Source: a virus
Virus record (IMG/VR): IMGVR_UViG_3300033143_003663
Coordinates: 1 to 20,811 of that record
Reading direction: 5' to 3' (one strand)
DNA: 20,811 bases
Shown: piece after piece, positions 3,250 to 19,129 of the stretch
Layout: each line of letters starts with the position of its first letter
How positions within the stretch are numbered: the stretch's first letter is position 1
Notes under the pieces: generated by a model
The model's database searches: none
The model's input: only the letters and a program-made list of their open reading frames with translations
Told to the model about the DNA's origin: nothing
Made by a program: the position numbers and the translations under genes

Positions 3250-5139
3250 TTAAGTTGATGATACTACATTATTACTAAATGTAGAAAATATTGTTTTTTC
3301 TCCTGCAGGATCTGTGCCTGCATCAGTTGATATTATTACTGTTGCAAAATAACCCTTAATACCTGATGATGGATAACCACCATATGAGTCAGGTCCAAAT
3401 ATAACTTCACCTGGTCTTGGAGCACTATTGCTTTTTAATTCTGCTACGTATTTACCTTCTTTTCTAATAAAGCCAGCTCTTCTAATTGGTTGACTTAATG
3501 CAGCAGGATATACATTACCTGCATCATCATAAGCACCTTCATAGTAACTTCTTACTTGAGCAGTCTTGTCTTCTTGGCTTTCATATACGCCAGGAACAGG
3601 ATTTGAATAATCATCAGGCACTTCAAAAGTTCGTTGTAAATCAGACACAAATGAATCAACTTGCCAACCATTACTACCTTCATATCCAACTGTTAAAAAG
3701 TTTTTATTAATACTTACATTATTATTAAAAACTAATTTTACTGCAGATGCTTGAGTAGCAGCACCATAGAACTCATTTCTAGTATTACTTGTTTCATCAT
3801 TATGTTTCCATACTTGACCACTTTTTGTAGTAAAGTAATCGTTTTTAATACTAAAAATAAAATCTGGTACATAGCTATATCTTGACGTCCAACCTAAAAC
3901 TTGCTCATCAAAAACAACCGTTTGATTAAAACCATCTTCATTTGCTTGACCAGCTTTTGTAGGGTTTACACCTGTTGCTGGGTCTTGTAGTGATACTGTA
4001 TAGAACCTGTCATATGTATCCCAACCACCTACTATTTTATCTTTATCGTAATACTCAAATACTAGAACTTCATTAGCTAAAGGCGCTCTAGGTTCTATAG
4101 AAACATATATAGTAACACTACCTTGTTCAGCTTTCTTAATTGTTATTTCATCACCGGTTACAGAAGCATTATTGTAATTTCCCGAGCCTGCACCTAGTTC
4201 ATATAACACCTTGGCACCTACAGGTAATTCGTTTGCATTAGTAGTTAAGTTTATAAAATATTCAATTGGCGCTCCTCCTGTAGCTCCATCACTTGCGTAA
4301 GTATAACTATCATCATATATAGATTTATAGTTTTCATCTACATCTCTTAATAGATCTCTAAAAAAGTTTGACATACCGTACTGAGATATTTCAGTTAAAC
4401 CATCTCTAGATAATCTCATTATAGATCCTCTGTCTCTATCTGCAAAGTATTTTCTATAACCAAACACAGCAAAAGACTCTGGATTTTTACTAATACCAAA
4501 CTCTCCTACATAAGGAGTTATTTGACCAACAACTAAATTACTCGATGTAACAGTACCTCCGCCTTCTGCAGAATATATAGCATCTTTATCTATTAAAGCT
4601 CTATTTACTTTATCTTCTTGAAATACTATTAAGTTAGTATCTTCCGCATACAGTCTTTGTATACTACCTTTTTGTGGGTCTACAGCTTTAGTAATAGCTT
4701 CACCTACAGAAAAAACATTTGTTTGATTAATACCTGTTCTTGAATTATATAAACCAGAGTATATTAAAGCATTAGGTCTATATTCTTGAGCGTTGCTATC
4801 TTCTTTTAAATATGCTTTAGCACCATAATCTGTAGACACATTGTTGTATCCACCTCGTATTCTAGCTTCTTCTACTACCCAATTTTCTACTTCTTGATAA
4901 TTATAATTTTCACTATCTGCAGCGCCTGATGGAAACTCAGGGTAACCATCAGCACCACCTCTCCAAGGTAGACCTGGAAATGTAGAACCATAACCACCTC
5001 TATATGGATCTTCTCCATTGCTTGTAGCTGGGTAAGGCCAAGGTTGTACAGGGCTAACGCTAGTGTCTAATGTGCCTCTATATACAACCTTTTTTAACCA
5101 AAATGAATTATAATAATCTACAAATACTGTTGTTGCCAT
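3250..5139 (-). CDS. Tail stabilisation/tubular-type protein, C-terminal portion as a separate gene, 629 aa
   Basis: The protein is beta-rich and Tyr/Asn/Gly-rich. The core at about residues 90-260 carries a distinctive series: EEARIRGGYNN (90-100), NALIYSGLYNSRTG (123-136), LIVFQEDKVNRALIDKDAIY (170-189), GISKNPESFAVFGYRKYF (215-232) and RGSIMRLSRDGLTEISQYGM (237-256). From memory, this series follows the sequence types of the preceding gene within one long tail-tube/stabilisation protein in related marine phages; such proteins form beta-propellers around the tail hub. Here it is its own frame, starting with ATG one base after the previous stop (TAATATG). Residues 20-80 are a Pro/Gly/Tyr-rich segment that may be a linker. 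The two products probably assemble together in the tail. The family assignment is moderate and the split is directly visible. Confidence 0.75.
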   Translation of the reverse strand: MATTVFVDYYNSFWLKKVVYRGTLDTSVSPVQPWPYPATSNGEDPYRGGYGSTFPGLPWRGGADGYPEFPSGAADSENYNYQEVENWVVEEARIRGGYNNVSTDYGAKAYLKEDSNAQEYRPNALIYSGLYNSRTGINQTNVFSVGEAITKAVDPQKGSIQRLYAEDTNLIVFQEDKVNRALIDKDAIYSAEGGGTVTSSNLVVGQITPYVGEFGISKNPESFAVFGYRKYFADRDRGSIMRLSRDGLTEISQYGMSNFFRDLLRDVDENYKSIYDDSYTYASDGATGGAPIEYFINLTTNANELPVGAKVLYELGAGSGNYNNASVTGDEITIKKAEQGSVTIYVSIEPRAPLANEVLVFEYYDKDKIVGGWDTYDRFYTVSLQDPATGVNPTKAGQANEDGFNQTVVFDEQVLGWTSRYSYVPDFIFSIKNDYFTTKSGQVWKHNDETSNTRNEFYGAATQASAVKLVFNNNVSINKNFLTVGYEGSNGWQVDSFVSDLQRTFEVPDDYSNPVPGVYESQEDKTAQVRSYYEGAYDDAGNVYPAALSQPIRRAGFIRKEGKYVAELKSNSAPRPGEVIFGPDSYGGYPSSGIKGYFATVIISTDAGTDPAGEKTIFSTFSNNVVSST

Positions 5140-5140
5140 A

Positions 5141-8100
5141 TTATGAAAGTACTAAATCAAAATCAAAATCTGTTGAAAGACCACTACCTGATCTATCAGT
5201 CACTCTTAAAGTAAGAGGATATGACGCAATAGGCGCAGCTGATGTTGCTTCTATACCTATAGATGGAGGACCACTACTATGATAAAGTTGAAACAGACCA
5301 GGAGGAACAGTACCTCTTGGTATTAGTTCAAAAACACCTAGTGTTATTAACTCATCTACGTTGATTATTATATCTGAAGCACCTGCTGGAGACACAGGAG
5401 GGAACGGAGGCGCCGAGGGATCTTCACGTGCAACTCCATTGTAATAATTATCAGAATTAACGCATCCGTTTCTAAAAAAATCTTTATTTGGACTACCGTA
5501 ATTTAAAAACGAAACTGAGTCTAAAACTGTAGCGGCTGATCCAACAGCATTGCCGTTCCAAACAACTTGCCAATCAGCTCCTGCTATAGGAGATTCATTT
5601 ATAACAGATTTGTTAGTTGCTGTAGGTGTATAAGGTGTGGGTAAAATACCAGTTACAGTAAAATCAAAATCAAGAGTATAAACACCGGTGTCAAGCACAG
5701 CAGGTATACCAGGGCCTGTATATTCTAAGTCATATAGTATAGTGCTACCAGAAACAGGCACTAACTGAAAGTCGCTTGAAAAATCAACGCCATTTTGATT
5801 CTCTACTCCATCAAGTGTTACAGTACCATAACCAGCAGGTGATCCATCAGGTAACAACGCTTGTATTCGCGCACATGTTACAGGAGTAACTGTTCCATCA
5901 TCATTCTCAGATAAGTCTAGTGTAAAGTCTACATTACTAGCATCTACAAATCCAGTATCATTATCTATATCTTCGTTTAATTGTGCTATTGTACCACTAG
6001 TTGTAGACTCATAGTATATTTCAATTTGAGACTCTACAGGATCTGTTTCAAAAACGTTTAATGCTCTAGAAAATTTTGGTGTATTTTGCGTTACTGCAGA
6101 TAAACCAATAATAAAATTTGTAGATATTTGTGCAACAAATGGATTAGCAGAAGCACCTAGATATAAGGGATCTATATATTCTGACCCATCATTAGGATAA
6201 GATGAATTAGTTATACTTACTCCAGAAGAATTGTTTTGTGAAGTCCACTTTCCTAGATCATTAAAAGATATTATAGAATTAACTGTACTTGTAAATTTAC
6301 CTTTAATTTGAGAACTTTCAGATACTGCCAATTGATCTATGTAACCGCTTACAGTTGCGTCTGTAGATATATTACTTGAAGCTACAATATATGTAGTAAC
6401 AACTCTTGGAAATAATAACGTTTCACTACCATATATTTCTTCTGTAGGACCTACATCAGCTAATTCTTTAGGTACTTTATTTATGTTATCTCCAAATAAA
6501 GCTAAATTAGAAAATTGAGTAGTTCTTACATATTGAGGTTTATCTCCAACTGTAGGTGAAGTAGCATCATCTTTACCTAGTTTACCACTAAAAGTTATAA
6601 TACCAGAAGTAGCACCAGGTAGATACACATTGTAGTATTCTTGTTGCTGTTGTTGTACAACAATTTTATAACTGTAATATCCTAATGGATTTTCAGTTGT
6701 AAATGTACCTGGATAACCACCATCAACTGCTGTAGGTATAGGATCTAAAAAGTTAACTGTAATACTATTACCAGGCCAGTTAAGTGGAGAAAGCCCACCA
6801 CCAGTATATGGAGCGTATATAGTAGAATCTTTTTTACCAACACCTAACGCCTGAGAAGGATCTCTTAATATCACATTAGATGATCTACCATATCTATCTA
6901 CAAGTACTACACCAACTTTATAAGATCTGTTTTGTTTAACAGTGTGATTAGGATATTCTTTTCTTTGTTGTCTAAATACAGGAGAAACTTCTAATGATGG
7001 TTTTTGTGAATAACCTAAAAAGTAGTTTAAAAAATCAGGTGATCCATGTTTTTCTATAAAGTTACCATACATAACTCTATTACCAGTGGTTGCTTGTGCT
7101 AAAGCTTTAATAGGTACTTTATCATGAACTCTAGTAGAAACCATTTCAGGTAAAGTTTTAAACGGCTTATTAGATAAATAGTCGTATATATAAAATCTAT
7201 CTGTACCGCTAAAAGCTGTATCTATTTCTATTTCTTCAATTACTTTTATAGCTAAACCATCAGACTCTTTAGCTAGTATTTGTATAGACTCTACTTTAAA
7301 ATCATCTGCAAAATCTTGTTGTCGTGATCCAAGAGTTTCACCAAATGGCTCTGGTAGTGGTAAATTAAACTTTATAGTAGACACTTGGTTTTCCATAAAC
7401 TTAACTACTCCTGTAGCAGCAGCATCTCTTTCATCTTTTCTAGCAGGTGCGCCAACGGGTTGAGTGTTAGCAGTGGTAGGCATAGAACTAGATAGAGTGT
7501 TAAATGATGAATCTATAAAATAACCGTATTGCTTAGGTACAAAAGCTGATTGAGTAAATGGTGCCATTAATGAATACTCACCATCATCATATTTAAATCT
7601 ATAACTAAATCTTATAAATCTATCTTTTAAATAGTCTTCGTCACCATCGTAATCAATATTATATTCTGGGTTTTCATAGAAAAAAGCTAATACATCATTA
7701 GCTTCAAATGCTGTTCTTTCCGCAGGATCTACAAATCTTGCAGCTGCTGCATCTGCCGCCGCTCTTATCTCTGAATCTGTAGCATAAGGATAATCAGGTG
7801 TTGGCCAATCATACTCTATCCTCGTTTCAAAAGGTTTGTTTTTTAATTTAAACACACCTAACTCTGGAAAATTTAAATTAATAAAATACATTTGAGCGGT
7901 AAAATTACCAACATCTTTATTGTATTTACTAAAATCTAAATTATTATCTGCACCAACAGTCTCTATAGGCCACAGCGCATTAGGTGCTAAATACTGTTCT
8001 GTTTCATTTATCATAGATGATTTGTAAGTTCCACCATCTAAATAAACTAATTGTAAAGGTTTATAAGGCATATACTTAGAAACAGATATATGATCCTCAT

Positions 8101-8638
8101 TTAAGTAATATGTTTCTGGATTTGCAATAGCTGTTTCTACATTAATTTTTCTAGGTTGATTACGATTGTCTGTCCAGAATAAAAGATCTTCTACGAGATC
8201 AACAGCATATATAGGATGAGTTTTAGAGAAGTTTAAAAAGTTACCTGATACTAATATATCTTCAGCACCAGTAACTAAATCTCTGTAAGCTATAAAGCAG
8301 TCTGCAGCTGGCACTGTGGCTCCTTTGTCATCAACAAAACTGCCTGGAGCAAAATTATCTAATTGATTATCTGAAGCATCAGTATAATTAGTAGCAAATA
8401 AAAATATTCTATCGCTATTAGTATCTTCATAAACACCAATGATATCTACGTTGTCGTCCCAAGTAAAGTTAGTTAATTGTGTATTACCTAAAACGTTTTC
8501 TACAACTCCTTCATCTGGACCTTCTGATTTACTAACAGATATATTAAATCCATCTCTGTATTCTCCAGGCGTTAGTATTCTTTCGTCTAAGTCTTTATTC
8601 ATTTTAGACTTAGTGAAAACTACTCTTGATTCAGCCAT
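5141..8638 (-). CDS. Large tail tubular / stabilisation-type structural protein with C-terminal Ig-like domain, 1165 aa
   Basis: The N-terminus has the signature of tail-tube/stabilisation proteins (compare P22 gp10 and T7 gp12): KMNKDLDERILTPGEYRDGF at residues 12-31, then a region ending VVENVLGNTQLT. Repeated beta-propeller-like strands follow, including DRIFLFATNYTD and EDLLFWTDNRNQPRKINVET. The middle holds HTVKQNRSYKVGVVLVDRYG and YYSYKIVVQQQQQEYYNVYL (near 650), then FSNLALFGDNINKVPKELAD. After about residue 870 the protein changes to Ig-like or fibronectin-like beta modules. The last 65 or so residues (GTVPPGLFQLYHSSGPPSIG, then YPLTLRVTDRSGSG) fit the putative Ig family He_PIG, a cadherin-like fold common on virion surfaces. 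It follows the neck genes with a 2-base gap. It probably forms the short tail or its collar; structural identity is likely, exact homology is inferred. Confidence 0.8.
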   Translation of the reverse strand: MAESRVVFTKSKMNKDLDERILTPGEYRDGFNISVSKSEGPDEGVVENVLGNTQLTNFTWDDNVDIIGVYEDTNSDRIFLFATNYTDASDNQLDNFAPGSFVDDKGATVPAADCFIAYRDLVTGAEDILVSGNFLNFSKTHPIYAVDLVEDLLFWTDNRNQPRKINVETAIANPETYYLNEDHISVSKYMPYKPLQLVYLDGGTYKSSMINETEQYLAPNALWPIETVGADNNLDFSKYNKDVGNFTAQMYFINLNFPELGVFKLKNKPFETRIEYDWPTPDYPYATDSEIRAAADAAAARFVDPAERTAFEANDVLAFFYENPEYNIDYDGDEDYLKDRFIRFSYRFKYDDGEYSLMAPFTQSAFVPKQYGYFIDSSFNTLSSSMPTTANTQPVGAPARKDERDAAATGVVKFMENQVSTIKFNLPLPEPFGETLGSRQQDFADDFKVESIQILAKESDGLAIKVIEEIEIDTAFSGTDRFYIYDYLSNKPFKTLPEMVSTRVHDKVPIKALAQATTGNRVMYGNFIEKHGSPDFLNYFLGYSQKPSLEVSPVFRQQRKEYPNHTVKQNRSYKVGVVLVDRYGRSSNVILRDPSQALGVGKKDSTIYAPYTGGGLSPLNWPGNSITVNFLDPIPTAVDGGYPGTFTTENPLGYYSYKIVVQQQQQEYYNVYLPGATSGIITFSGKLGKDDATSPTVGDKPQYVRTTQFSNLALFGDNINKVPKELADVGPTEEIYGSETLLFPRVVTTYIVASSNISTDATVSGYIDQLAVSESSQIKGKFTSTVNSIISFNDLGKWTSQNNSSGVSITNSSYPNDGSEYIDPLYLGASANPFVAQISTNFIIGLSAVTQNTPKFSRALNVFETDPVESQIEIYYESTTSGTIAQLNEDIDNDTGFVDASNVDFTLDLSENDDGTVTPVTCARIQALLPDGSPAGYGTVTLDGVENQNGVDFSSDFQLVPVSGSTILYDLEYTGPGIPAVLDTGVYTLDFDFTVTGILPTPYTPTATNKSVINESPIAGADWQVVWNGNAVGSAATVLDSVSFLNYGSPNKDFFRNGCVNSDNYYNGVAREDPSAPPFPPVSPAGASDIIINVDELITLGVFELIPRGTVPPGLFQLYHSSGPPSIGIEATSAAPIASYPLTLRVTDRSGSGLSTDFDFDLVLS

Positions 8639-8640
8639 AT

Positions 8641-9795
8641 TTAATGTTTAATCCATTTAGATTTACCTCGCATATTTTGTATCATCTCACCTAGCTTCAT
8701 ATTGCTTAATCTTATTTTAGCATTTCTTAACTGTGCTGATCGATCACGTTTAAATCTTTGTACAATAAATTCTTGAACACCTGCTCTACCTGCGAGTATA
8801 GAGTAAGCTATATGCATGTACATTGCTTCTTCAGCCATCTTAGGTATTTTAACATCCATGTCGTAAGCTAAACCATCAGACAAGTATTCTAATATAACAC
8901 ATCGATTAGCTAGGTCACTAGAAAAAGCAAACTTGTTGTGCCTTCTGTCAATAGCGTACCAACCATTAGTTTGTGAAATAACTGGATCTAAACCATATCT
9001 TCTACCTAAAGCGTTTTTACGCCATGTCCAATTATATATACTAGAGTCGTCATATAACTCTTGATACGCTCCTGTTAAGTCGTTGTCATTGTTTTTCTTC
9101 CACTTCTCTACTGTTATTGATTGAGATGATTGTAAGTTTTCTCCTAAACTATCTTGCGTAGGTAATCCTGTGTCATCTTGTATGGGAACTTCAGTAGGAT
9201 ATTGAGTTAATAAATCTACAGGTTTTATTGGGTGAAAAACACCGTGATCATCTGTCCAACCTACTCTAACGTAATTAACGTAGTCTTGTGGTATAGGATA
9301 CGACAAACTAGGTGGTACAGTTATTTCTACTTTTCTTATACTATTTAAAGTATCATAACTAAATTCTTGTAAACCTCTTTTAGCGTGGAATATAACATCA
9401 GTTCTTTTTACCTTACTAATTAACTTGTCTGGACCTACGTAAGCCATCATAAAGTTATTTATAATTTCTTCTAATGGTACATATTCATAACCTCCATAAC
9501 TGTTAAAAAGAGCATTTGCTTTTAATTTAACTCTTATATCTACACCTACAGCTTGAGCAGGTATTGTAACTATATTATTATCTACGCTATATGTGCCTAA
9601 TGCTAAATCAGTAAAAACTGTTGGACTTACCAGTGTATTTACAGCTACAGTGTAATTAGCATTTTGAGGAGGAGTTCCAGCACCATAATCATTTAAATCT
9701 GTGTTTAAAGTAACTTTTAAACTAACTTGACCGGTTGACTCAAAATACTGTTCACCTTCATAGTATTGTGCGTTTGTTTCTTTTATTAATGCCAT
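8641..9795 (-). CDS. Neck / tail-tube adaptor-type structural protein, 384 aa
   Basis: The first 95 or so residues form a beta-rich domain (QVSLKVTLNTDLNDYGAGTP; NYTVAVNTLVSPTVFTDLAL). The conserved-looking core is at about 103-190: EYVPLEEIINNFMMAYVGPD, KVKRTDVIFHAKRGLQEFSY, then VEITVPPSLSYPIPQDYVNY followed by VRVGWTDDHGVFHPI. The C-terminal part is helical (DVKIPKMAEEAMYMHIAYSI) and ends in basic residues. This layout (helical pair, Pro-rich strand, WxDxxG turn) is what I associate with neck or tail-tubular proteins of podovirus-like and crAss-like phages. Gene order agrees: it lies between the first connector gene (3-base gap) and the giant tail protein (2-base gap). It probably forms a ring below the portal. 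No catalytic motif is visible. The structural assignment is reasonable; the specific ring identity is inferred. Confidence 0.75.
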   Translation of the reverse strand: MALIKETNAQYYEGEQYFESTGQVSLKVTLNTDLNDYGAGTPPQNANYTVAVNTLVSPTVFTDLALGTYSVDNNIVTIPAQAVGVDIRVKLKANALFNSYGGYEYVPLEEIINNFMMAYVGPDKLISKVKRTDVIFHAKRGLQEFSYDTLNSIRKVEITVPPSLSYPIPQDYVNYVRVGWTDDHGVFHPIKPVDLLTQYPTEVPIQDDTGLPTQDSLGENLQSSQSITVEKWKKNNDNDLTGAYQELYDDSSIYNWTWRKNALGRRYGLDPVISQTNGWYAIDRRHNKFAFSSDLANRCVILEYLSDGLAYDMDVKIPKMAEEAMYMHIAYSILAGRAGVQEFIVQRFKRDRSAQLRNAKIRLSNMKLGEMIQNMRGKSKWIKH

Positions 9796-9798
9796 ATG

Positions 9799-10512
9799 TT
9801 AACTTTTAGCGTTTGCTCTGTCTGCTTGTAATTGACCAGCAGCAGCTGATATTATAGACTGATCTCTTATTACTACACCGGCGTATAGCAATATATTTAG
9901 TATTATCTCAACCCTTTCAGAGTTATGTAGTTCAAAGTTTTGCAATGCTGGATCTGCACCGTTATATATAAAAGCACCAACACCATTAACCGTGTAAGGC
10001 CAGTTTATGTTTTCGGGTTTTTTAACATATTGAGCTTCAACACCTGATGTAATATCTGAAGGGTATAAACGTATTTTATCTTCTTCGTATAAGTATATAG
10101 GAAATTGTTTGCTAGCTTGAGAAAGCTTAGATCTTTGTATTTGATAGAAGTCTGTACGGTTAACTCGCTGCGCTTCTATAGGTAAACGATTAGTATCTGT
10201 AAAAGTAATAGATCCTAACCTGTAATGATTAGCTGGTAAATCAAACCTTTCATTAACAGCATCATATACTAACGTCTCATTTCTTTTAAATATATCTATT
10301 TTTTCATCAGTATTTTCTACACGATCTGCATAGTCTTCATCTGTTTGTCTTTGTCTAAGTTCTTGATTTAAGTCTTCAAAATATCTTTCAAATATCTCTC
10401 TTTGTACTTGACTCCCTATTTGATTAAACTCTTCAGGCGTTAAATAACCACGTTGTTCTTTATTAAGTATTAATAAGACTGTTCTATAGACTTCGTTAAC
10501 TGATACTGCCAT
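9799..10512 (-). CDS. Head-tail connector (neck) protein, 237 aa
   Basis: The N-terminal helical domain reads NEVYRTVLLILNKEQRGYLT then PEEFNQIGSQVQREIFERYF. A charged helix (QELRQRQTDEDYADRVENTD) follows, then a beta section with VNERFDLPANHYRLGSITFT, IYLYEEDKIRLYPSDITSGV and AQYVKKPENINWPY. The C-terminus is a helix (ERVEIILNILLYAGVVIRDQ). An EF-like or KEQRGYLTPEEFN opening with helices flanking a beta core is, as I recall, typical of small portal-binding adaptors in marine podovirus-type phages, comparable in role to T7 gp11 or P22 gp4. It is the first gene after a terminator at 10525-10550, whose U-tract ends about 18 bases before the ATG, so it heads the tail part of the operon. There is no Shine-Dalgarno sequence; the leader is A/T-rich. 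Confidence 0.75.
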   Translation of the reverse strand: MAVSVNEVYRTVLLILNKEQRGYLTPEEFNQIGSQVQREIFERYFEDLNQELRQRQTDEDYADRVENTDEKIDIFKRNETLVYDAVNERFDLPANHYRLGSITFTDTNRLPIEAQRVNRTDFYQIQRSKLSQASKQFPIYLYEEDKIRLYPSDITSGVEAQYVKKPENINWPYTVNGVGAFIYNGADPALQNFELHNSERVEIILNILLYAGVVIRDQSIISAAAGQLQADRANAKS

Positions 10513-10524
10513 TTATATATATTT

Positions 10525-10550
10525 AAAAAAAGGTGGCGGTTAGGCCACCT
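10525..10550 (-). terminator. Rho-independent terminator downstream of the 256-aa gene
   Basis: Read on the minus strand, a 7-bp stem AGGTGGC / GCCACCT with a 6-base loop (CTAACC) is followed directly by a run of seven T residues. It lies 16 bases after the stop at 10567 and just ahead of the connector gene starting at 10512. It is one of only two GC-rich hairpins I saw in intergenic DNA of the window. Partial read-through is needed if no promoter follows. Confidence 0.82.
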
Positions 10551-10566
10551 TATTTATAATCACTTG

Positions 10567-11337
10567 TTATTTTAGTTTTTTATCTATTGACTTGTAGACT
10601 TCTAAACCTTCATCTGTTTTAAACCAAGCTGCCATTGCAGAATAAGGATTTTCATCAAAAGGCACGGTCATTAACTTCCTGCCATTACTCGACCATTTAA
10701 AAGTTCTTTGATCGTCAGCTAAAGATATTATTTTAGCTTCAGTAGCTTTTATTGCAAAGTTTCTTAATACTACATTTTCATCCTCTGATAAATCAATAAA
10801 TAGTTTAGGATTCTTTTTCGCAAATATTAATATATCTCTTTTTAATTCTTTGCTAGACAAAGAACCTACGGATGTTCCTTGCTCAACTCTTAAAATAGCT
10901 TCTGCTTGATCTATATCCATTTCATAAGCTAAGTTCATCGCTGCTATTTCTAATTCTAATTTATCAAACTGATCTTCTGCTTGAACTTCTTTGTCAAACT
11001 CAGCAAACACTAAACCGTTGTGTGGATGTTTAGATAAAAATTCTTGTAAATTTCTTTTTTCTTTTGGTACATTTAAATGACCATTGTCAAATACAATATG
11101 CTTTAAAGTGACACTACCTTTTTGTTCATCAACAAATGGTGACTGTGAATTAGTAGCATATCGTAATTCTCTTTCATAACCTACTTCTTTATCAAACCAA
11201 ACAAGAGGATATCTTTTTGAATGTCTACTAGGTAGGGTATATGTTAAAGGCATTTTGTTGCCTATTAAATAATAGTTTCTATCTTTATATTCCCAAGTAT
11301 CTTTTTTTACTTTAGGAGTTTTTTCTTTTGTTTCCAT
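10567..11337 (-). CDS. Uncharacterised late phage protein, 256 aa, flanked by terminators
   Basis: I do not recognise a named family. The N-terminal 85 or so residues are basic, then beta-rich: YYLIGNKMPLTYTLPSRHSK and VGYERELRYATNSQSPFVDE, followed by VTLKHIVFDNGHLNVPKEKR. The middle is acidic and helical (LELEIAAMNLAYEMDIDQAE) and leads into SVGSLSSKELKRDILIFAKK. The C-terminus has a short WSSNGRKLMTVPFDENPYSA motif and a final helix. I recall similar proteins near the capsid genes in uncultured marine phages, without a known role. It is expressed alone: a terminator precedes it (11357-11385) and another follows it (10525-10550). It starts at an ATG after a purely A/T leader. Being soluble, charged and mixed alpha/beta, it could be a minor virion, assembly or nucleic-acid-associated protein; none can be chosen from sequence. 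Confidence 0.78.
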   Translation of the reverse strand: METKEKTPKVKKDTWEYKDRNYYLIGNKMPLTYTLPSRHSKRYPLVWFDKEVGYERELRYATNSQSPFVDEQKGSVTLKHIVFDNGHLNVPKEKRNLQEFLSKHPHNGLVFAEFDKEVQAEDQFDKLELEIAAMNLAYEMDIDQAEAILRVEQGTSVGSLSSKELKRDILIFAKKNPKLFIDLSEDENVVLRNFAIKATEAKIISLADDQRTFKWSSNGRKLMTVPFDENPYSAMAAWFKTDEGLEVYKSIDKKLK

Positions 11338-11356
11338 AATATAATATAATATAATT
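11338..11356 (-). promoter_or_regulatory. A/T-only leader before the 256-aa gene
   Basis: Minus-strand sequence between the terminator U-tract and the ATG consists only of A and T (repeats of TATAT). It shares ATATTATATTATGG with the start of the scaffold gene at 14468. There is no Shine-Dalgarno sequence. It may serve SD-independent translation initiation; a TATAAT-like promoter cannot be excluded, but any start site would be almost at the ATG. Confidence 0.3.
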
Positions 11357-11385
11357 TAAAAAAGACCCCGCCGAAGCGGGATCTT
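11357..11385 (-). terminator. Strong rho-independent terminator with UUCG tetraloop after the capsid genes
   Basis: On the minus strand, stem AAGATCCCGC / GCGGGGTCTT (one T-G wobble) closes a TTCG loop through a C-G pair, the exceptionally stable cUUCGg tetraloop, and runs into six T residues. It begins 10 bases after the stop of the small capsid-associated gene (11396). It would separate the scaffold/capsid transcript from the downstream unknown and tail genes, giving more capsid than tail message. Confidence 0.92.
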
Positions 11386-11395
11386 GTTAATTTAC

Positions 11396-11710
11396 CTACG
11401 ATATTGCAGGGTAAATAATTGTTCCATCTCCATCAGAAACAACAGGCGCATTAATTGCAGGCCCTGAAGCTCCATTAAAAGCACCAACTACAGGAGCCCA
11501 AGCATCAAAAAGCTCAGCATCTGTAGGTATAGTACCAGCTGTTGAAGTGTAAGTAAAAATATAATTTACAGAACCGGTAAGACTAAGTGTTAGTTCACCA
11601 GTACCTGTAACTTCTAATTTTATAGGTTCACCACCGATTAGTATAGCTTGTCCAGCATCTTCCGGAAGCCCAGTAACAGCATCTTGTGGTATGACTTTAA
11701 TTAATCCCAT
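11396..11710 (-). CDS. Small beta-rich protein next to capsid gene; candidate head decoration protein, 104 aa
   Basis: The short, mildly acidic protein has alternating beta-strand sequence: AILIGGEPIKLEVTGTGELT, then LSLTGSVNYIFTYTSTAGTI, and a Pro/Gly/Asp-rich end (INAPVVSDGDGTIIYPAIS). It has no Cys, signal peptide or membrane helix. It lies 30 bases downstream of the major capsid gene and is the last gene before the strong terminator, so it should share the high capsid-level expression. Phages often put a small decoration or head-stabilising protein exactly here (for example lambda gpD next to gpE), and the beta-rich make-up is compatible. I do not recognise a family, so the role rests on position and size. 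A head-fibre or minor head protein is equally possible. Confidence 0.7.
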   Translation of the reverse strand: MGLIKVIPQDAVTGLPEDAGQAILIGGEPIKLEVTGTGELTLSLTGSVNYIFTYTSTAGTIPTDAELFDAWAPVVGAFNGASGPAINAPVVSDGDGTIIYPAIS

Positions 11711-11740
11711 AATTTCTATTCTTTAAATGTTAAACAATAA

Positions 11741-13261
11741 TTAAGCTCCTTTAAATAACACGAAGTTATTAGCAGCTTGTACAACTAAACATCTCTCAGA
11801 TAAGAAATTAACTCGCATTGCATCAATGTCAGAAGTGTAAGCACCACCAACAGATCCTGTAATCCAAGACTTATATCTTCTATCTTCAGTTTCAGAAGCT
11901 CTATATCTTACATGTAAGAAAGGACGTCTGATATTAACACCTAACATTTGGTCATACACAGTTGTAGTACCTGCAGGTATCATAACACCATCAATAGCTT
12001 TTGATAATCCTCTAGTAGAGATATCATTAAGATATTTCCAATCAGTTTTATAGAAGTCATAAGAACCTCTTCTGAAACCAGAGAAACCAAAGTTCATAGC
12101 CATATCAGCTTCGTTATCGAATAAACCATAAGAAGCAGCAGTAGTAGAAGCATAACCTCCACCAGCCATAGCTGCGATCATATCATCAAAGTCAAGAGCA
12201 GTTTCTCTTGATAAGAATAACATGTTTTCTTCGATAGCACCTTGCTTGTCTAATTGCTTTAAGATCTCATCAAAATCTCCTAATGCACCTGAACCAGGAG
12301 CAGCAGCTCCAGCAAAACCAGAATATACATTACCTCTATCTTCGATAGCAGCAAATAAACCTTCAGATCCTTGAATTGGCTGTGCGATAGGTCCACCTTG
12401 TGGAACAGTAGCTGTTGGATATTGAGCACCAAAATCGTAGTTCTCAACATTGTTCATTCTAACTGCTTCAACCATAGCCATTTCTAAGTAATCATCAAAT
12501 CTTAGTCTTGTTTCAGACTCAGACTTTAGATACCATAAATATCCAGATGTACCATCTTCAGTTGCAACTTCAACCCAACCAATCTGTGCAGTATCAGAAC
12601 CATTAATCTCAAAGTTGTCTTTAAGTATAATAGGCTTGTTTGAATACTGAGTAAACTGTGGTTGAATAGCAGCTGACATTCCAATTGAACCTTTAGCAAA
12701 TTCAGAACCATATACAAATAAAGTACAAGTATTAGCTCCTACTAATCCTCCTGGTAAACCAGCAAAATTAGTTTCATAAAGAGTACAATCAAGAGTATCA
12801 TCAGGTGCAACGTTAGTAGTTACATTCTGTACTAAAGCTTTAGCTGTTAAAAGACCTGTTGCTTTATCAGCTATTAATATAGTTTGACCTATTCTTACAG
12901 CACCATTAGGAGCGTCAGCACCTGTTGCAGCTGATAAATCTAAAGTAACTTCTATATTATTAGCACCTGTTGCAGAAGCACCTGTTCCTACATTTTTGTA
13001 AGCTACGTGCAGTCTGTTTTGTTCAGACCATATTACCTGATCTGATGTCATTGGCATTTCAGCACCAACCATTCTTAAAAATCCAGATAAGGTTCTATTA
13101 CCATATCTTTCCACTTCCTGCTCATATAACTCAGGAAGATATTGCTGCGCAAAATCATTACCACCAGCATCGTTAAATGACAAATAGTTGTCATTAAGAG
13201 CTAGTCTTTTTTGTGCAGGTATCAATGATGCAGGAAAACTCCCGCCGTTTACAAAACTCAT
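11741..13261 (-). CDS. Major capsid protein, 506 aa
   Basis: Identified by position (portal, scaffold, then this gene), size and sequence type. The N-terminal part has NDFAQQYLPELYEQEVERYG then NRTLSGFLRMVGAEM and SDQVIWSEQNRLHVAYKNVG, like the N-arm and start of an HK97-type shell protein of marine phages. A beta-rich insert follows at about 90-190. The middle has a long helix with DFDEILKQLDKQGAIEENML and RETALDFDDMIAAMAGGGYA. The end carries SGFRRGSYDFYKTDWKYLND, then MIPAGTTTVYDQMLGVNIRR and DAMRVNFLSERCLVVQAANN. No protease-type cleavage site is obvious. Base use is slightly richer in G and C than its neighbours, as is common in very highly expressed genes. It follows the scaffold gene with a one-base gap and has no Shine-Dalgarno sequence. 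Confidence 0.9.
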   Translation of the reverse strand: MSFVNGGSFPASLIPAQKRLALNDNYLSFNDAGGNDFAQQYLPELYEQEVERYGNRTLSGFLRMVGAEMPMTSDQVIWSEQNRLHVAYKNVGTGASATGANNIEVTLDLSAATGADAPNGAVRIGQTILIADKATGLLTAKALVQNVTTNVAPDDTLDCTLYETNFAGLPGGLVGANTCTLFVYGSEFAKGSIGMSAAIQPQFTQYSNKPIILKDNFEINGSDTAQIGWVEVATEDGTSGYLWYLKSESETRLRFDDYLEMAMVEAVRMNNVENYDFGAQYPTATVPQGGPIAQPIQGSEGLFAAIEDRGNVYSGFAGAAAPGSGALGDFDEILKQLDKQGAIEENMLFLSRETALDFDDMIAAMAGGGYASTTAASYGLFDNEADMAMNFGFSGFRRGSYDFYKTDWKYLNDISTRGLSKAIDGVMIPAGTTTVYDQMLGVNIRRPFLHVRYRASETEDRRYKSWITGSVGGAYTSDIDAMRVNFLSERCLVVQAANNFVLFKGA

Positions 13262-13262
13262 T

Positions 13263-14468
13263 TTAATTTATTTTTGTTCGTTTTTTAATTCTCAACTTAG
13301 AACTATCTTCACCGTTAATGGCTCTAACTTTAAATCCACCAATAAAAATATCTTGATCATTTGAATTATGATTTTCAACATTTATATTTTTAGACTTAGC
13401 GTTAATGTCTCTAACAGCATCTGCTTTTCCTTGTTCATAAAAATGTTGAGCAAAAGCATCAGAATTATTTGCAACGTATAAAGCTCTATGATAACCTTCA
13501 GTATCTCTTATAGTACCATCTTTGTTAAGAAACTTTCCTACAAAGTTGCTAATTTTACTTTGGTTATTCATTACTTCATCACTATTGTTAACAGCGTAAC
13601 GAAACTTCTTTTCACCTACATTGAAATTAAAACCTTTAAAATCAGTGAATAATTGTTTGCTACGATTAACAAAGTCATTGTGAAGTGTTTCTGCACGTTG
13701 TTGTTCTTCGTTGTATCTATTGAAAAAGTCCATAGCTTTTTTCTGTTCCTGAGTAACAGACGGCCTCAACTTGATTTCGTCATAGTATTTAGTTTTGGTA
13801 TCTTCCAAAAACTTACGGGCTTTAGCAATTTCTTCTTTATATGCTAGTTGTTTTTTTCTAATAGTTCTTTCTTCTTCTTCTTCTTCATCCCAAGAAAAAC
13901 TATCTTCTAACATAAAATTAATCTCTTCACTATTTAAATGCGGTTTAGTCTTTTTATAATATTCTCTTAATAAAACATCTTCTTCTACTTGAGAATAATC
14001 AGCATTTAATCTAGCGTAATCTTCTATAGTACCACCAGTTTCTTCCATAAAATTTACAAGTTTTTCTATATTTTCAGGAAGTTCTCTTTGTGGTACAGTT
14101 TCTACTTGTTGTTCAATTACCGTTTCTTCTTTAACAGGTTCTGAAACATCTTCATCAGTTACTTCTACTAATGGACTTGTTACTTCTTCCTGTTTCTCAT
14201 TTTGTTCTTGCACTGGCGCTTCATCGTTGATGGGCTCCCGTACTTGTTCAACCACTTTTTCGCTGTTGACTTCGTTTGCGGATTGCTCGACAGCAGCATT
14301 GCTATCATCTGATCCTTGTTCTTGAACGGCATCGTCTTCTTTTTTAGTTAAATCTACTTTGATTACATCGTTTGGTTTTACTAATTTCTTAGGTCTACCT
14401 CTTTTCTTTTTTACTTTTAAACCCTCGCTAGTATTGTCAACGATGGGTTCTTCTTTTTCTTCAGCCAT
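13263..14468 (-). CDS. Capsid scaffolding-like protein with AT-hook motif, 401 aa
   Basis: It lies between portal and major capsid genes, the usual place of the scaffold. The first 140 or so residues are very acidic, repetitive and probably disordered, with clusters of Glu, Val and Gln, and include KKKRGRPKKLVK near residue 20, an AT-hook-type motif that binds AT-rich DNA minor groove. The middle is a long charged coiled coil with a six-Glu run (WDEEEEEERTIRKK) and later NRYNEEQQRAETLHNDFVNR. The C-terminal part resembles scaffold ends: NFVGKFLNKDGTIRDTEGYH, then RALYVANNSDAFAQHFYEQG and KADAVRDINAKSKNINVE, finishing strongly basic (KLRIKKRTKIN), as expected for the part that binds capsid protein. 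No Ser-His-Asp protease signature is seen. Function is inferred from position and composition; the AT-hook is an oddity. Confidence 0.8.
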   Translation of the reverse strand: MAEEKEEPIVDNTSEGLKVKKKRGRPKKLVKPNDVIKVDLTKKEDDAVQEQGSDDSNAAVEQSANEVNSEKVVEQVREPINDEAPVQEQNEKQEEVTSPLVEVTDEDVSEPVKEETVIEQQVETVPQRELPENIEKLVNFMEETGGTIEDYARLNADYSQVEEDVLLREYYKKTKPHLNSEEINFMLEDSFSWDEEEEEERTIRKKQLAYKEEIAKARKFLEDTKTKYYDEIKLRPSVTQEQKKAMDFFNRYNEEQQRAETLHNDFVNRSKQLFTDFKGFNFNVGEKKFRYAVNNSDEVMNNQSKISNFVGKFLNKDGTIRDTEGYHRALYVANNSDAFAQHFYEQGKADAVRDINAKSKNINVENHNSNDQDIFIGGFKVRAINGEDSSKLRIKKRTKIN

Positions 14469-14485
14469 AATATAATATTATATAA
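14469..14485 (-). promoter_or_regulatory. Palindromic A/T leader before the scaffold gene
   Basis: The stretch includes the perfect 12-base palindrome TATAATATTATA (14471-14482) and ends ATATTATATT directly before the ATG at 14468, a leader nearly identical to that of the gene at 11337. There is no Shine-Dalgarno sequence. It may be a low-structure leader for SD-independent initiation or contain a -10-like TATAAT; I see no convincing -35 partner. Confidence 0.3.
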
Positions 14486-14492
14486 TTAAACG

Positions 14493-16904
14493 TTATTGTG
14501 GAGCAAACTGTTCTAGTCCAAATCCACCTAGTGAATCATTGCCTGCTGATTCAAAATTTATAGGCAATGAGTCATTTTTTCTTTGATCTATCATTTGTGA
14601 TTGTTGAGAACCTGATATTCTAGTTCTTTTATCTTTTCTATCTTCTATTTCTTTTTCTCTTGTAGCTTCTGCCTCTGCTCTCGCTCTTGTTAGTTGCATA
14701 TTAAAATCAAACTCAATTTCCATTAATTGTCGTTTAACTTCAGCTTCTCTTTCAAGTTTAGTAATTTGTAAATTGTTTTTAGCTGTTTCTATTTGTACTT
14801 GAGTGTCAGCTAGCGCTTGTTGCTTTTGTACTTCTGCAACTGCCGCAGCTTCAGTAGCTTGAGCATTAGCTTGAGCTTGAGCTTGTATATTAGCTTGTTG
14901 TGCTTGTTGATCTTGCTCTTGTTTTTTCTTTCTTCTAAACTTTAAAAGTTGATTAGCTAATTTAATATTATTAACATTTCTAATATCGATAGCGTCTTCT
15001 AGGTATATTTGACCAGACTGTAAAGCCACTTGTATGTTTTGTTCTAACTGTGCTTTTTCTTCTTCATCAGGTTTTAACTCTAAATAAATACCAAAATCAA
15101 ATATATTTAAATTGTATAAATCCTCTAATGTACCTACATTATAGCTACTTATAGCAGATCTTAAAGACTCTTTTGTTAAATCAAACTCTAATGTATCATT
15201 AACTCTTAAAGCTATGTTCTCACATGTTTTGGCGGTAAGATACATACTAGCTTGTACCAAATGTCTAGTAGCTGTATTTGAATTTGCTATAGCTAATTTT
15301 TGTAATCCTACTAAAGCGTCTTTAGCTGGAGCGCTACCATCTCTTGCTTCATTAAGTCCGGTCACATCTCTTATCATTTGTAAGTAATATTGATAAGTAC
15401 TTATTAATGACTGTATTTTAGCTTGACCGCTATTAGTAGATAACTCTTGTATAGGTACTTTACCAGGATTCATGCCTCCATCTTGTGTCATTGATCTACC
15501 AATGATACTACCAGTTTGGAAATACATATTCAAAGCTTCTTGTGGATTATAACTTGTACCATTACCTAAATCTACTTCAGCTAAACCATCAGCATCAAGG
15601 AACACACCATCAGGTACAACTCTTGACATTACTTGTTGTAGTTTTAAATGCGTAAGCTGTATCATATCAGCAAATCCAGTTATTCTACTTACAAGACTTT
15701 CTATTCTACCTTTGTACATTCTTGGTGCACAAATATTGTAGTTCATATTTACTTTAACTAAATTAGACGTTGGTCTTGTCATATTCTTAGCAAGCTCCCA
15801 TCTTAATAAATCGTCATGCCCTAATATTTTAGCACCACTATATAGTACTTCAATAGCTCTTGAAACTCTATCAAAATTATCGTTAGCTGGTGGATTAAAA
15901 GTATCAGGTTTTTCTAATGCTTTTTCTAAACCTGTATTAGTTTGCTTTATTTTAAATACTTGATCATGATATGTTTTATATTCAAAATACAAAACGTATA
16001 TACTATTACCATCGTTTCTAGCGTTATAGTCATACACGTAGCTACTGTTATTAGGGTATTTTTGTATACGCTCTAGTTCTGCATCTGTTAAGTTAGGAAA
16101 CTCTCTTTTTAAATCTGCAAGACTTAATCTTTTTACTTCACCAACATACCATATATCTTCAAAGTTAGGATCATCAGTGTAAGAATACACGATGTGAGCA
16201 GGATCAACATAGTCAACAGTTATACCTTCCGCTTTATTCCAATTTGTTTTTACAGCTCCAATACCTAAAACTGTAAGATCATAATTAATTCTTCTTCTAG
16301 TTAATTCGTATTTATTAAAATCTAATACATTGCTAATTAATTCTTCTTCAGCTATTTCCACAGATTGTTTGTAGTCTAACTGCATGTGAACATCTAATTC
16401 TTCTCGTGTCTGTGGCATGTTAGCAGGGTCTGCTGACGAATGAAGATCAACACCTAAAGCACTATTAACAGTATTAATAAAATCTTTAGTCTCAATATCC
16501 ATTATAATATTCTGAGCGTAGGTTGTTCTTTGCTTTAAACTTTCTGGATCTTGAGCATAAGCTTTTACTTCATATATCTTTTCAGACATACCATTAACAA
16601 CTATATCTACAAACTTAGGTAACACAGGTATAGGTTTCCAATCTAGATTAAGATAAGATAAATCACCATTTATAGATAACTCATCTTTATATTTTTGTAT
16701 TGATTGTTCTGCTCTTGCGTATAATCTTAAGTTTCTAAAATTATTATATTGTGTTGAATATCTATTACCTAAACCAGTTCTTGTTCCACTAAACCAATCT
16801 CCTTCAATAGCTTTGCCTACTTGCAAACCATATTCGTAACTTGCTTTAACTTCTTCTGGAACTACCTGATCTGGAAATACACTATTACTATCAGTTATAA
16901 TCAT
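14493..16904 (-). CDS. Portal protein, 803 aa, with long C-terminal coiled coil
   Basis: The protein directly follows the large terminase (junction TAATG, one-base overlap) and precedes scaffold and capsid genes, as portals do. The N-terminal region has YNNFRNLRLYARAEQSIQKY and LNLDWKPIPVLPKFVDIVVN, the lead-in of large podovirus/crAss-like portals (about 700-810 residues). The body at 150-650 includes DPAHIVYSYTDDPNFEDIWY, MYKGRIESLVSRITGFADMI and a stem/crown-like section with RDVTGLNEARDGSAPAKDAL and VGLQKLAIANSNTATRHLVQ. From about residue 650 to 770 the sequence is an uninterrupted Gln/Ala-rich then Glu/Arg-rich helix (QAQANAQATEAAAVAEVQKQ), likely a barrel or coiled coil extending into the capsid. 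It ends in a Gly/Phe-rich tail (SLGGFGLEQFAPQ). It would form the dodecameric vertex ring through which DNA enters and leaves. Confidence 0.9.
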   Translation of the reverse strand: MIITDSNSVFPDQVVPEEVKASYEYGLQVGKAIEGDWFSGTRTGLGNRYSTQYNNFRNLRLYARAEQSIQKYKDELSINGDLSYLNLDWKPIPVLPKFVDIVVNGMSEKIYEVKAYAQDPESLKQRTTYAQNIIMDIETKDFINTVNSALGVDLHSSADPANMPQTREELDVHMQLDYKQSVEIAEEELISNVLDFNKYELTRRRINYDLTVLGIGAVKTNWNKAEGITVDYVDPAHIVYSYTDDPNFEDIWYVGEVKRLSLADLKREFPNLTDAELERIQKYPNNSSYVYDYNARNDGNSIYVLYFEYKTYHDQVFKIKQTNTGLEKALEKPDTFNPPANDNFDRVSRAIEVLYSGAKILGHDDLLRWELAKNMTRPTSNLVKVNMNYNICAPRMYKGRIESLVSRITGFADMIQLTHLKLQQVMSRVVPDGVFLDADGLAEVDLGNGTSYNPQEALNMYFQTGSIIGRSMTQDGGMNPGKVPIQELSTNSGQAKIQSLISTYQYYLQMIRDVTGLNEARDGSAPAKDALVGLQKLAIANSNTATRHLVQASMYLTAKTCENIALRVNDTLEFDLTKESLRSAISSYNVGTLEDLYNLNIFDFGIYLELKPDEEEKAQLEQNIQVALQSGQIYLEDAIDIRNVNNIKLANQLLKFRRKKKQEQDQQAQQANIQAQAQANAQATEAAAVAEVQKQQALADTQVQIETAKNNLQITKLEREAEVKRQLMEIEFDFNMQLTRARAEAEATREKEIEDRKDKRTRISGSQQSQMIDQRKNDSLPINFESAGNDSLGGFGLEQFAPQ

Positions 16905-19129
16905 TATTTAATTAATTTTGAAAGTGATCCTTTGTTGTCATATCTTTTAATACCTAAGTCTATACTTTTAATAGATCGTCTAGCTACAGGTGTATATCTA
17001 TTTTTATTACAAGCCATTATAGCTAAACCTGAACTAATCGTTGCATCATATTTTGTTCTGTTATTTATATTGAATTTAGCCCAATCTTCTAAAGTCTTTT
17101 GAAAATACATATCACCATGTGTATCTCCTAAGTTACCTACATACTCTTCAATATAACTTTCAACAGCGGCTGCGTGAGCTTGCTTAATATCTTCACTTGT
17201 ATTTGGTATACCACCTATTTCCTTTTCAGTAGAAGAAAGCTTGTTCCAAGTTTTATCAGGGCGGTTCATTGAAAACGCTCTGTATCCTCTACGTTTAAAA
17301 TAATAAAGTAATCTAGGTTTATTATTTTCTGCTAATATAGGCATGCCATAAAACACGCAAGCCATTAGTACATCTTCAAAAAATATTTCAGCCGTCTGTG
17401 GTCTAGCTACATATTCTAAAAAGAAATGGTTAGGTGGAGCATCTTCCATTGAAAACTTTGTAAGCCCGTGAAGAGCACCGTTAGATCCTTTGCCATCTAC
17501 AGTACCGCTAATATCATAACTATCACAACCAAAAGCCCCAATGTGTTCGTTACCAGGATGTTTTACTCCATTTTTTAAAATCACTTGATTTTGAAGATTT
17601 TTAGGTGGTACCCATGATATTAAAAACCTACCATCTTTATTAGGCGCAAAGATTACGCTTGTATCTTTAATACCATTTTGCCATATAAAAGAACCTCTAG
17701 TAACATTAAAGCTATTTGCAAGTTCTTCATTGTAATCTATCTGTTGATATATTTTAGTTAGATTAAATAAACTGTTCTTAGCTTCATCTCTAAAAGCGTG
17801 TTGCTCAGTTCTTGGAAACTGCCTATAGTATTCATTTAAACTATCTGTATCGTTTTTTAAACCGTCTACTTCATTTTCCCAATGCTCAATGACTCCTGTT
17901 GTAATTTCATAACCATCAATTCCTTTGACTGTACCTTTTTCTCCAGTGAATACAGGTAATCCATAAGAATCCATGAATCCTTCGTAGTTCCACTCCATAG
18001 GTATGAACAAGCTATAGAGTCCAGAAGACGTTTGTCCGTTTCTATTTCTTTTTGTAACGTCGCTATTGTAGTATATTTTTTTAAAATTTTCTCCACCTTT
18101 ATCTAACGAGTTTGATGTTGAGCCCATCATACACTTACCTACAATCCTAGATCCTAGACGTAATGTAGTTTTTGTAACTCTCCAGTTATTTAATATATTA
18201 TCAGGACGTTCCCATTTACCACTTTCATCGTGTGCTAATAGCTTTAGCTTTTCACCATCATAAGAGTTATCACCTGTATTTTTCCAATCGATAGTTGTGT
18301 CTAAACCTTCTAAATCTAGTTCTTTAATATTTTCTTGTAACTTTCTTCTAGTAAGTTTGGCGGCAGGAACACGATATGCCAATTCAGTCTTTGGCCTGTC
18401 CATACCATCTTGTATTGGCTTGAAGAAAAACGGATAGTTAACGGATATTGGAACAACTTTATCTGTAAACATTTTTTTGGCATCTGCTCCTGTTTTAGAT
18501 AATATACCAAATCTTGAATCGCTTGATATTGTTGCCATATTAACAAGTTCGGCTGATGCCATAAAGCTAAATCCACTCCGTCTGTTTTTGAGGTAGCACA
18601 TACCATAACATCTTGCGTCTGCTTTACAAGCTTCCCAAAATATAAAGAAGAGTCTATTTGCTTCTCTATAATCCGGTGCGCCAACATCGATTTTTGACCA
18701 TTGCAAGTACATGTAATGAGTACCAGTAATATATACAGGGTTGCCATTATTGTAGAAATGAAAACCTTCTTCTCTGCGTCTAAATTCTTCATCAATATAA
18801 TCGTACCATTTTTCTTTAAAACTTATAGGATGATCTTCCCAGTCAAATCTGTTTTTTATTTTAGCAAGTTCTTTTGGATATTCAAATCTTTGCCAGTATT
18901 GTTCCTCTTTATTTTCGCTTCGTTTATAAGATTTTCTTTCTGCCGGTAATGCGATACGTAAATTTTGTATTTCAATGATCTGTCCAATTTTACCGCTTTT
19001 ACTTATGCAAACAAAATCATATTCACTGTTATAACCATACTCCCATTTTTTATACCTATTATTTTTTTTAAGTATTTTAGGATTTATAATATTACTTACA
19101 TCAGACCAAAGAGTTTGTTTATAGCTCAT
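16904..19129 (-). CDS. terL: Terminase large subunit (packaging ATPase/nuclease), 741 aa
   Basis: Both enzymatic halves are visible. ATPase: a Walker A-like segment CYLKNRRSGFSFMASAE at about 178-194 (terminase-type, lacking the classical GKT), a Walker B LKLLAHDES with D301 and E302, and the coupling motif GSTSN at 336-340. Nuclease: an RNase H-like fold with likely metal-binding D536 (GAFGCDSYDISG), E601 (MPILAENNKPRLLYYF) and D695 (KYDATISSGLA). The N-terminal 130 or so residues include a GFHFYNNGNPVYITGTHYMY element common in terminases of Bacteroidota and marine phages. At 741 residues it is longer than T4 or T7 terminases but normal for crAss-like ones. Its ATG overlaps the small-subunit stop by four bases (ATGA) and is one of few starts here with an SD-like GGGAG about seven bases upstream. 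It pumps DNA into the procapsid through the portal and cuts concatemers. Confidence 0.95.
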   Translation of the reverse strand: MSYKQTLWSDVSNIINPKILKKNNRYKKWEYGYNSEYDFVCISKSGKIGQIIEIQNLRIALPAERKSYKRSENKEEQYWQRFEYPKELAKIKNRFDWEDHPISFKEKWYDYIDEEFRRREEGFHFYNNGNPVYITGTHYMYLQWSKIDVGAPDYREANRLFFIFWEACKADARCYGMCYLKNRRSGFSFMASAELVNMATISSDSRFGILSKTGADAKKMFTDKVVPISVNYPFFFKPIQDGMDRPKTELAYRVPAAKLTRRKLQENIKELDLEGLDTTIDWKNTGDNSYDGEKLKLLAHDESGKWERPDNILNNWRVTKTTLRLGSRIVGKCMMGSTSNSLDKGGENFKKIYYNSDVTKRNRNGQTSSGLYSLFIPMEWNYEGFMDSYGLPVFTGEKGTVKGIDGYEITTGVIEHWENEVDGLKNDTDSLNEYYRQFPRTEQHAFRDEAKNSLFNLTKIYQQIDYNEELANSFNVTRGSFIWQNGIKDTSVIFAPNKDGRFLISWVPPKNLQNQVILKNGVKHPGNEHIGAFGCDSYDISGTVDGKGSNGALHGLTKFSMEDAPPNHFFLEYVARPQTAEIFFEDVLMACVFYGMPILAENNKPRLLYYFKRRGYRAFSMNRPDKTWNKLSSTEKEIGGIPNTSEDIKQAHAAAVESYIEEYVGNLGDTHGDMYFQKTLEDWAKFNINNRTKYDATISSGLAIMACNKNRYTPVARRSIKSIDLGIKRYDNKGSLSKLIK

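Follow-up and report, generated by a model that had tools for sequence, protein, structure and literature searches.

Two conserved terminator-like hairpins frame a gene of the crAss001 gp33-like post-capsid family in a marine bacteriophage

We analysed a virus record of 20,811 bases from a marine bacteriophage, the whole of which is called the window here. The genes of interest form a block in the order GroES-like co-chaperonin, TerL, portal, probable scaffold, capsid, a 104-aa ORF, hairpin 1, a 256-aa gene, hairpin 2, a head-tail adaptor-like gene and the tail genes. The features are as follows:

19355-19951, minus strand: GroES-like co-chaperonin gene, upstream of TerL (phrog_13932, 3.1e-19)
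11741..13261, minus strand: major capsid protein gene (phrog_13704, virion structural protein; capsid by synteny)
11396..11710, minus strand: 104-aa ORF in the interval between the capsid gene and hairpin 1 (ORF list)
11362..11385, minus strand: hairpin 1, terminator-like, with a 10 bp stem, a UUCG loop and a T tract, 10 nt past the stop codon of the preceding ORF
11338..11361, minus strand: AT-only leader of 24 nt, from hairpin 1 to the ATG, near-invariant in the window's clade
10567..11337, minus strand: 256-aa gene, of the post-capsid (crAss001 gp33-like) family (ORF list, PHROG, profile homology)
10990..11337, minus strand: residues 1-116, basic, beta-rich N-terminal part (predicted)
10777..10992, minus strand: residues 116-187, acidic helical middle (predicted)
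10570..10773, minus strand: residues 189-256, basic C-terminal domain with a predicted RecA C-terminal-like fold (VIA-align Z 7.1 and 7.5, below the safe level of Z 8)
10554..10568, minus strand: non-coding element AACAAGTGATTATAA, from the stop codon to hairpin 2, clade-conserved
10530..10551, minus strand: hairpin 2, terminator-like, with an 8 bp stem and a T7 tract, 15 nt past the stop codon of the 256-aa gene and 17 nt before the next ATG
9799..10512, minus strand: next gene, head-tail adaptor-like, which opens the neck/tail block (phrog_14543; SU10_adaptor below cut-off)

The 104-aa ORF, for which no Pfam or PHROG match was found, separates the capsid gene from hairpin 1, so that the layout had to be corrected on this point. 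The capsid protein of the window matches 85 phage records. Among the matches listed, the best is 49.5% identical, while the Flavobacterium elemo phages stand at about 40-41%, phi38:1 at 34.6% and phi18:3 at 23.0%.

Hairpin 1 (11385-11362) has the form AAGATCCCGC-TTCG-GCGGGGTCTT, with 10 pairs and a dG of -16.5, and is followed by TTTTAAA. Hairpin 2 (10551-10530) has the form AAGGTGGC-CTAACC-GCCACCTT, with 8 pairs and a dG of -12.5, and its T run is 7 when counted from the last G-C pair. Both carry the hallmark of a terminator (a G+C-rich hairpin with a T tract directly after it). The earlier note had described a UUCG hairpin before the gene and a hairpin with a T7 tract after it, and both were indeed found; a score combining hairpin energy and T tract places them first and second among the 9 candidates in the window, third place going to hairpin 2 read on the opposite strand. 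A consensus scan of window bases 1-20000 gave 16 terminator-like sites, with hairpins 1 and 2 at the top, as compared with a mean of 7.8 (sd 3.0) in shuffled sequence.

We also ranked the two hairpins genome-wide and on both strands in the contigs G001, G002 and G003 (those behind loci L020, L042 and L054). Hairpins 1 and 2 took ranks 2 and 3 of 34 in G001, 2 and 6 of 35 in G002, and 3 and 4 of 24 in G003, and ranks 2 and 1 of 30 in the distant G007. In G001 and G002, which belong to the close clade, the higher-ranked candidates lie on the other strand, and the two hairpins are the best two of the late strand. In the complete genome of phi38:1, hairpin 1 ranked 6 of 52 candidates and hairpin 2 fell outside the top 7; in Panino they ranked 3 and 7 of 46 genome-wide candidates.

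Conservation was evaluated in 201 loci of the family, reduced to 129 representatives that were non-redundant at 90% identity (127 of them with enough flank for hairpin 2). By a relaxed test, hairpin 1 was present in 118/129 and hairpin 2 in 113/127 representatives, against 1.1-3.1% in dinucleotide shuffles. By group, hairpin 1 was seen in 40/45 close and 78/84 distant relatives (shuffle rates 3.1 and 2.7%), and hairpin 2 in 43/43 and 70/84 (1.4 and 1.1%). A strict test retained hairpin 1 in 93/129 and hairpin 2 in 99/127, with shuffles below 0.1%. Among the best 80 of at least 428 IMG/VR relatives, 73 had hairpin 1 and 76 had hairpin 2. The earlier note had named relatives without the hairpins as what would speak against it. 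Most relatives keep both, which sustains the observation, although some do lack one, hairpin 1 being absent by the relaxed test in 11/129 and hairpin 2 in 14/127 representatives.

The hairpins are also specific to these two positions. In the same loci, a hairpin was found at 104/109 ORF ends before the 256-aa gene and at 104/127 after it, as against 28/647 elsewhere; the remark that the rest of the block is free of terminators is thus borne out for the relatives' loci, where other ORF ends rarely have one. At least 2 of those 28 hairpins, in L010 and L063, represent hairpin 1, which small inserted ORFs have displaced. The stems are divergent across the relatives while the position of the hairpin is kept, and in most relatives the T tract lies directly behind the stem. 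In the close clade, 98.9% of the 274 cells of the hairpin 1 stem were paired, and this fell to 5-57% when the partner was slid by 1-3 columns. Changes on both sides were seen in 4/8 pairs, in 8 such cells. Together, these results confirm that both terminator-like elements framing the 256-aa gene are real and conserved.

The post-capsid site seems to acquire variable small genes in the window's clade. In L010 and L063, small ORFs intervene and hairpin 1 lies roughly 450-530 nt upstream; additional hairpins are seen upstream in L004, L064, L136, L140 and L152. In phi18:3 (L084, 11024-12806) and phi13:2 (L085, 5989-8691), blocks of small opposite-strand genes are inserted directly behind the homologue of the 256-aa gene.

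We further examined the sequences following each hairpin for TAnnTTTG, the -7 element of the Bacteroidota sigma factor (PMC6847099). Within 45 nt after hairpin 2, the motif was present in 66/70 distant relatives (5.0 expected from shuffles; median offset 12), whereas it was seen in 0/43 close relatives (1.9 expected). It occurs behind hairpin 2 in phi38:1 and elemo and is absent there in Panino. Of the distant relatives lacking hairpin 2, 12/14 have the motif no more than 60 nt from the stop codon. In the stretch from hairpin 1 to the ATG, it was found in 0/40 close and 1/78 distant relatives having hairpin 1. The punctuation is therefore asymmetric: no recognised restart follows hairpin 1, while hairpin 2 closes a unit in the distant relatives and does not visibly do so in the window's clade. 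A broader pattern, TTGN{19,23}TANNTTTG, showed no clear excess over the reversed control in most of 10 whole records, so the case for a promoter rests on the local TAnnTTTG count.

These counts bear on the earlier suggestion that the expression of the gene is deliberately set apart from that of its neighbours, which we were unable to uphold. Since hairpin 1 is followed by no TAnnTTTG and by only 24 nt before the ATG, the 256-aa gene probably relies on polymerase that has read through from the capsid gene, and would be attenuated rather than insulated. As the motif is also missing after hairpin 2 in the window's clade, the tail genes there would likewise rely on read-through. In the distant relatives hairpin 2 does have the look of a true boundary, given the promoter motif behind it, from which the tail genes would restart.

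The AT-only leader was near-invariant, with at least 15 bases identical across 38 sequences, and it was kept in L010, L015 and L063, all of which lack an adjacent hairpin 1. This near-invariance suggests strong translation, which could offset any drop in transcript.

The spacing from the preceding stop codon was also estimated. Hairpin 1 starts within 27 nt of it at 112/114 loci in which that stop was located; the same holds for hairpin 2 in 42/43 close and 41/70 distant relatives, the latter being those in which a promoter follows. The E. coli terminator tR2 is repressed by ribosomes near the stop codon and reaches full efficiency beyond 27 nt (PMC4824070). As hairpin 1 lies within this distance, leakiness is plausible, although the tR2 data are from E. 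coli and may not hold for flavobacteria. Short stop-to-terminator spacing is moreover common generally, most being below 50 bp (PMC4824070), so the spacing is no proof of leakiness.

The element AACAAGTGATTATAA (10554-10568) is conserved in the clade beyond need. When it was evaluated as a promoter candidate in six records, its only exact match was the one behind the 256-aa gene; the other matches had two mismatches each, and those checked lay mostly within ORFs. On the early strand of G001-G003 (e.g. L213 and L219), a repeated motif was seen ahead of the genes, consisting of TTACAAACTAAATACGA, about 9 nt and, near the start codon, GGATAATA, and this is a candidate phage-specific promoter unlike the Bacteroidota type. 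It had no match at up to 2 mismatches in the window, G007 or phi38:1, and was not found beside either hairpin.

We next turn to the 256-aa protein itself, which had been described as matching no nameable family. This was too strong, since it matches phrog_34748 (8.4e-25) and phrog_16922 (9.8e-12), both annotated as of unknown function, and is profile-homologous to crAss001 gp33. All 28/28 members of alignment A1 match both PHROGs. In IMG/VR, at least 428 of 431 stretches matched the protein, and at least 585 of 599 in a second scan; matches were also seen in 85 phage records at E<=0.01 and in 19 contigs of metagenome-assembled bacterial or archaeal genomes. The protein had no Pfam match at E<=0.5, and searching PDB sequences with profiles A1, A4 and A5 yielded no meaningful hit.

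The relationship to the crAss-like phages was evident from profile comparison. Aligned by hhalign with ten post-capsid crAss-type proteins, including crAss001 gp33, the family gave a probability of 96 (E 4.7e-9, 211 columns), whereas the 14 controls (eight neighbour-family, one reversed and five column-shuffled) did not exceed 0.3. The window-family HMM found 6/9 oriented crAss-type loci. Foldseek against viral models gave 11 matches at E<=0.001, including Gundel, phi14:2 (S0A085, whose 294 aa equal the length of phi14:2 g090) and crAss-like proteins. From these comparisons, the 256-aa protein is a member of the post-capsid family that includes crAss001 gp33.

The composite build proposed before (a basic beta-rich start and a helical middle) agrees with the predicted pI along the chain, which is 9.3 for residues 1-116, 4.4 for 116-187 and 9.3 for 189-256. 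The AlphaFold models had a mean pLDDT of 87 and a pTM of 0.59, the latter leaving the placement of the domains uncertain. Direct Foldseek of the PDB gave no match at E<=0.001, and the 50 rows listed were unrelated folds, e.g. BIR domains. Residues 189-256 aligned by VIA-align with the RecA C-terminal domain in 2oep (Z 7.1, rmsd 1.7, 56 residues) and 3cmw (Z 7.5, rmsd 2.0, 58 residues), both short of the safe level; in one of the two comparisons an unrelated mitoribosomal chain, 8om2_Q (Z 6.8, residues 114-182), tied with the RecA rows. Residues 1-116, a part that was barely probed, had no fold in the VIA-align lists. None of 14 records exceeded the cut-off of 27 for Pfam RecA_C (PF21096), the window protein having no match; cr6_1, the best of the family, scored 22.3 bits and cr50_1 scored 14, both below this cut-off. 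Annotators have named crAss001 gp33 a "double-stranded DNA binding domain containing protein", and the homologues in cr50_1, cr6_1 and cr10_1 RecA. We consider residues 189-256 a predicted RecA-C-terminal-like domain; the likeness in fold is to that domain, and unlike in RecA, no RecA ATPase core was seen in the 256-aa protein.

The content of virions was assessed from the annotation of cultured phages. The phi18:3 record carries MS/MS notes on the portal, the capsid and gp112-115, and none on gp105 (the homologue) or on gp103, which adjoins the capsid gene. In the phi14:2 record, g088, g089 and the capsid g091 have such notes and g090 has none. The elemo and Calle records call the neighbours structural and the homologue of the 256-aa gene hypothetical, on a basis that is not stated. 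In the main texts of the structure and isolation papers of crAss001, gp33 is not named (PMC10172136, PMC6235969). A missing MS/MS note is weak evidence of absence from the virion. As the neighbours are listed as virion proteins and the homologues of the 256-aa protein are not, we tentatively infer that it may be a non-virion late protein with a role in head assembly.

The arrangement can be compared with that of crAss001 gp33 and phi14:2 g090, which likewise follow the capsid gene immediately and share its strand (the window having one small ORF between). A hairpin before the homologous gene was found by the same test in 6/10 crAss-type loci (crAss001, where it lies between the capsid gene and gp33, cr116_1, Dulem virus 41, DAC15, cr85_1 and cr10_1); cr108_1 and phi14:2 have a weaker one by eye that fails the test. 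No hairpin was seen there in cr50_1 and cr6_1 (L209 and L210), where a homing endonuclease gene lies between the capsid and post-capsid genes. However, gp33 is longer (330 aa) and about 18% identical to the 256-aa protein in the profile alignment, and hairpin 2 is absent from crAss001 and phi14:2. In all 10 crAss-type loci the space is too short for hairpin 2, the next gene overlapping or starting within a few to about 16 bases.

A further resemblance is seen in phi38:1 gp094 and the homologues in elemo phage and Maribacter phage Panino (Pervagoviridae, Elemovirus and unclassified), where the order capsid, 256-aa gene, neck is kept together with both hairpins. Their proteins are 25-40% identical to the window's, and in phi38:1 and elemo, unlike in Panino or the window's clade, hairpin 2 is followed by TAnnTTTG. 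Pachyviridae and Pervagoviridae are related to Crassvirales by the structures of capsid and terminase (PMC9855967). A hypothetical protein common to these two families has been mentioned (PMC8776804), and this may be the 256-aa family.

In T7, a single terminator for the phage's own polymerase directly follows capsid gene 10, and read-through carries on into genes 11 and 12 (PMC5592923). As with this terminator (T-phi), a terminator-like hairpin stands here behind the capsid gene, the genes downstream have no recognised promoter there, and read-through would supply them. The directly post-capsid position is the same in most relatives, whereas the window has the 104-aa ORF between. Unlike T-phi, two hairpins here frame one gene, and distant relatives restart with a host-type promoter motif. 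A search with PF00940 for a single-subunit RNA polymerase matched 0/11 records, the control genomes giving no match either. The double hairpin sets the present case apart, a single post-capsid terminator with read-through being already known in T7 (PMC5592923). No report of a post-capsid (double) terminator in these phages was seen in the literature searched, which is not proof that none is in print.

We favour, at a probability of roughly 0.55, a model in which two leaky attenuators stand in tandem behind the capsid gene, a promoter restarts transcription in the distant relatives, and the 256-aa protein has a late role in head assembly. Hairpins 1 and 2 would be leaky intrinsic terminators situated downstream of the late gene needed in greatest abundance, and are best read as a doubled version of the post-capsid terminator of T7. 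Polymerase exiting the capsid gene would meet hairpin 1, where some transcripts would stop and others would continue into the 256-aa gene; hairpin 2 would end a further fraction. In the window's clade, the remaining read-through would yield the neck and tail genes at a level reduced for a second time. In the distant relatives, a host-type promoter just past hairpin 2 would restart the tail genes, hairpin 2 closing the head unit. The expected outcome would be a falling ratio from capsid to 256-aa protein to neck and tail. The protein, with its predicted basic beta domain, acidic helical middle and basic RecA-C-terminal-like domain, and its homology to crAss001 gp33, would act as a late head-assembly factor of which no detectable amount is left in the mature virion. 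The hairpins alone do not explain stoichiometry, since the low-copy TerL and portal genes precede the capsid gene with no hairpins of this kind.

The conserved position and pairing of the hairpins would fit equally well if they served mainly in the protection or processing of mRNA 3' ends, stabilising the nuclease-trimmed ends of capsid mRNA and terminating little, and a stable 3' end would benefit this mRNA. However, the T tract directly behind most stems is a mark of intrinsic termination, and the coupling of hairpin 2 to a following promoter in the distant relatives is what would be expected of a transcription boundary; we regard this reading as possible but unlikely. True insulation, with the 256-aa gene as a separate transcription unit, served by a promoter of its own and flanked by near-complete terminators, would account for two good terminator-like hairpins framing a single gene. 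The window's clade might use another type of promoter, as its early-strand genes carry a different repeated motif. Yet a promoter would have to fit into the 24 nt between hairpin 1 and the ATG, where TAnnTTTG is practically absent from close and distant relatives alike, and the tail genes of the clade would need an unseen one within 17 nt, which makes insulation very unlikely.

The hairpins might instead mark the edges of a post-capsid insertion site for accessory and homing endonuclease genes, the insertions carrying or sparing them. The displaced and extra upstream hairpins in the seven loci named above, the opposite-strand genes of phi18:3 and phi13:2, and the homing endonuclease genes of cr50_1 and cr6_1 are in line with this. 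Most relatives, however, keep both hairpins with no inserted gene, and the stems stay paired through paired changes, so that we hold such an origin to be highly improbable. Leaky attenuation thus remains our preferred reading. A further reading, which we consider distinctly unlikely, is that the hairpins, being close enough to the upstream stop codon for a ribosome to reach them, are gated by translation, the polymerase passing only if a ribosome has just completed the gene before. If this were true, the share of polymerase arriving at the assembly and tail genes would scale with the translation of capsid, and a sensor of capsid synthesis would be conserved across phages as far apart as those of marine flavobacteria and the crAss-like ones of the gut.

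With these comparisons, many uncharacterised proteins of marine phages, matched in at least 428 IMG/VR stretches, are now joined to crAss-like gp33, and the post-capsid punctuation of transcription, in the form of hairpins, is conserved along with the gene. The hairpin, its spacing from the stop codon and the presence or absence of a promoter provide a testable rule for how these phages could balance capsid against tail proteins. The abundant and apparently non-virion head protein can be taken as a target of study in culturable phages (phi38:1 and the Flavobacterium elemo phages).

Elsewhere in the window, a 133-aa protein (2838-3239, minus strand) was identified as phrog_17252, to which PHROG assigns no function, and had no Pfam match; its look, as we presume, recalls GNAT acetyltransferases. 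The phage GroES-like gene is annotated in phi38:1, elemo and Panino as well.
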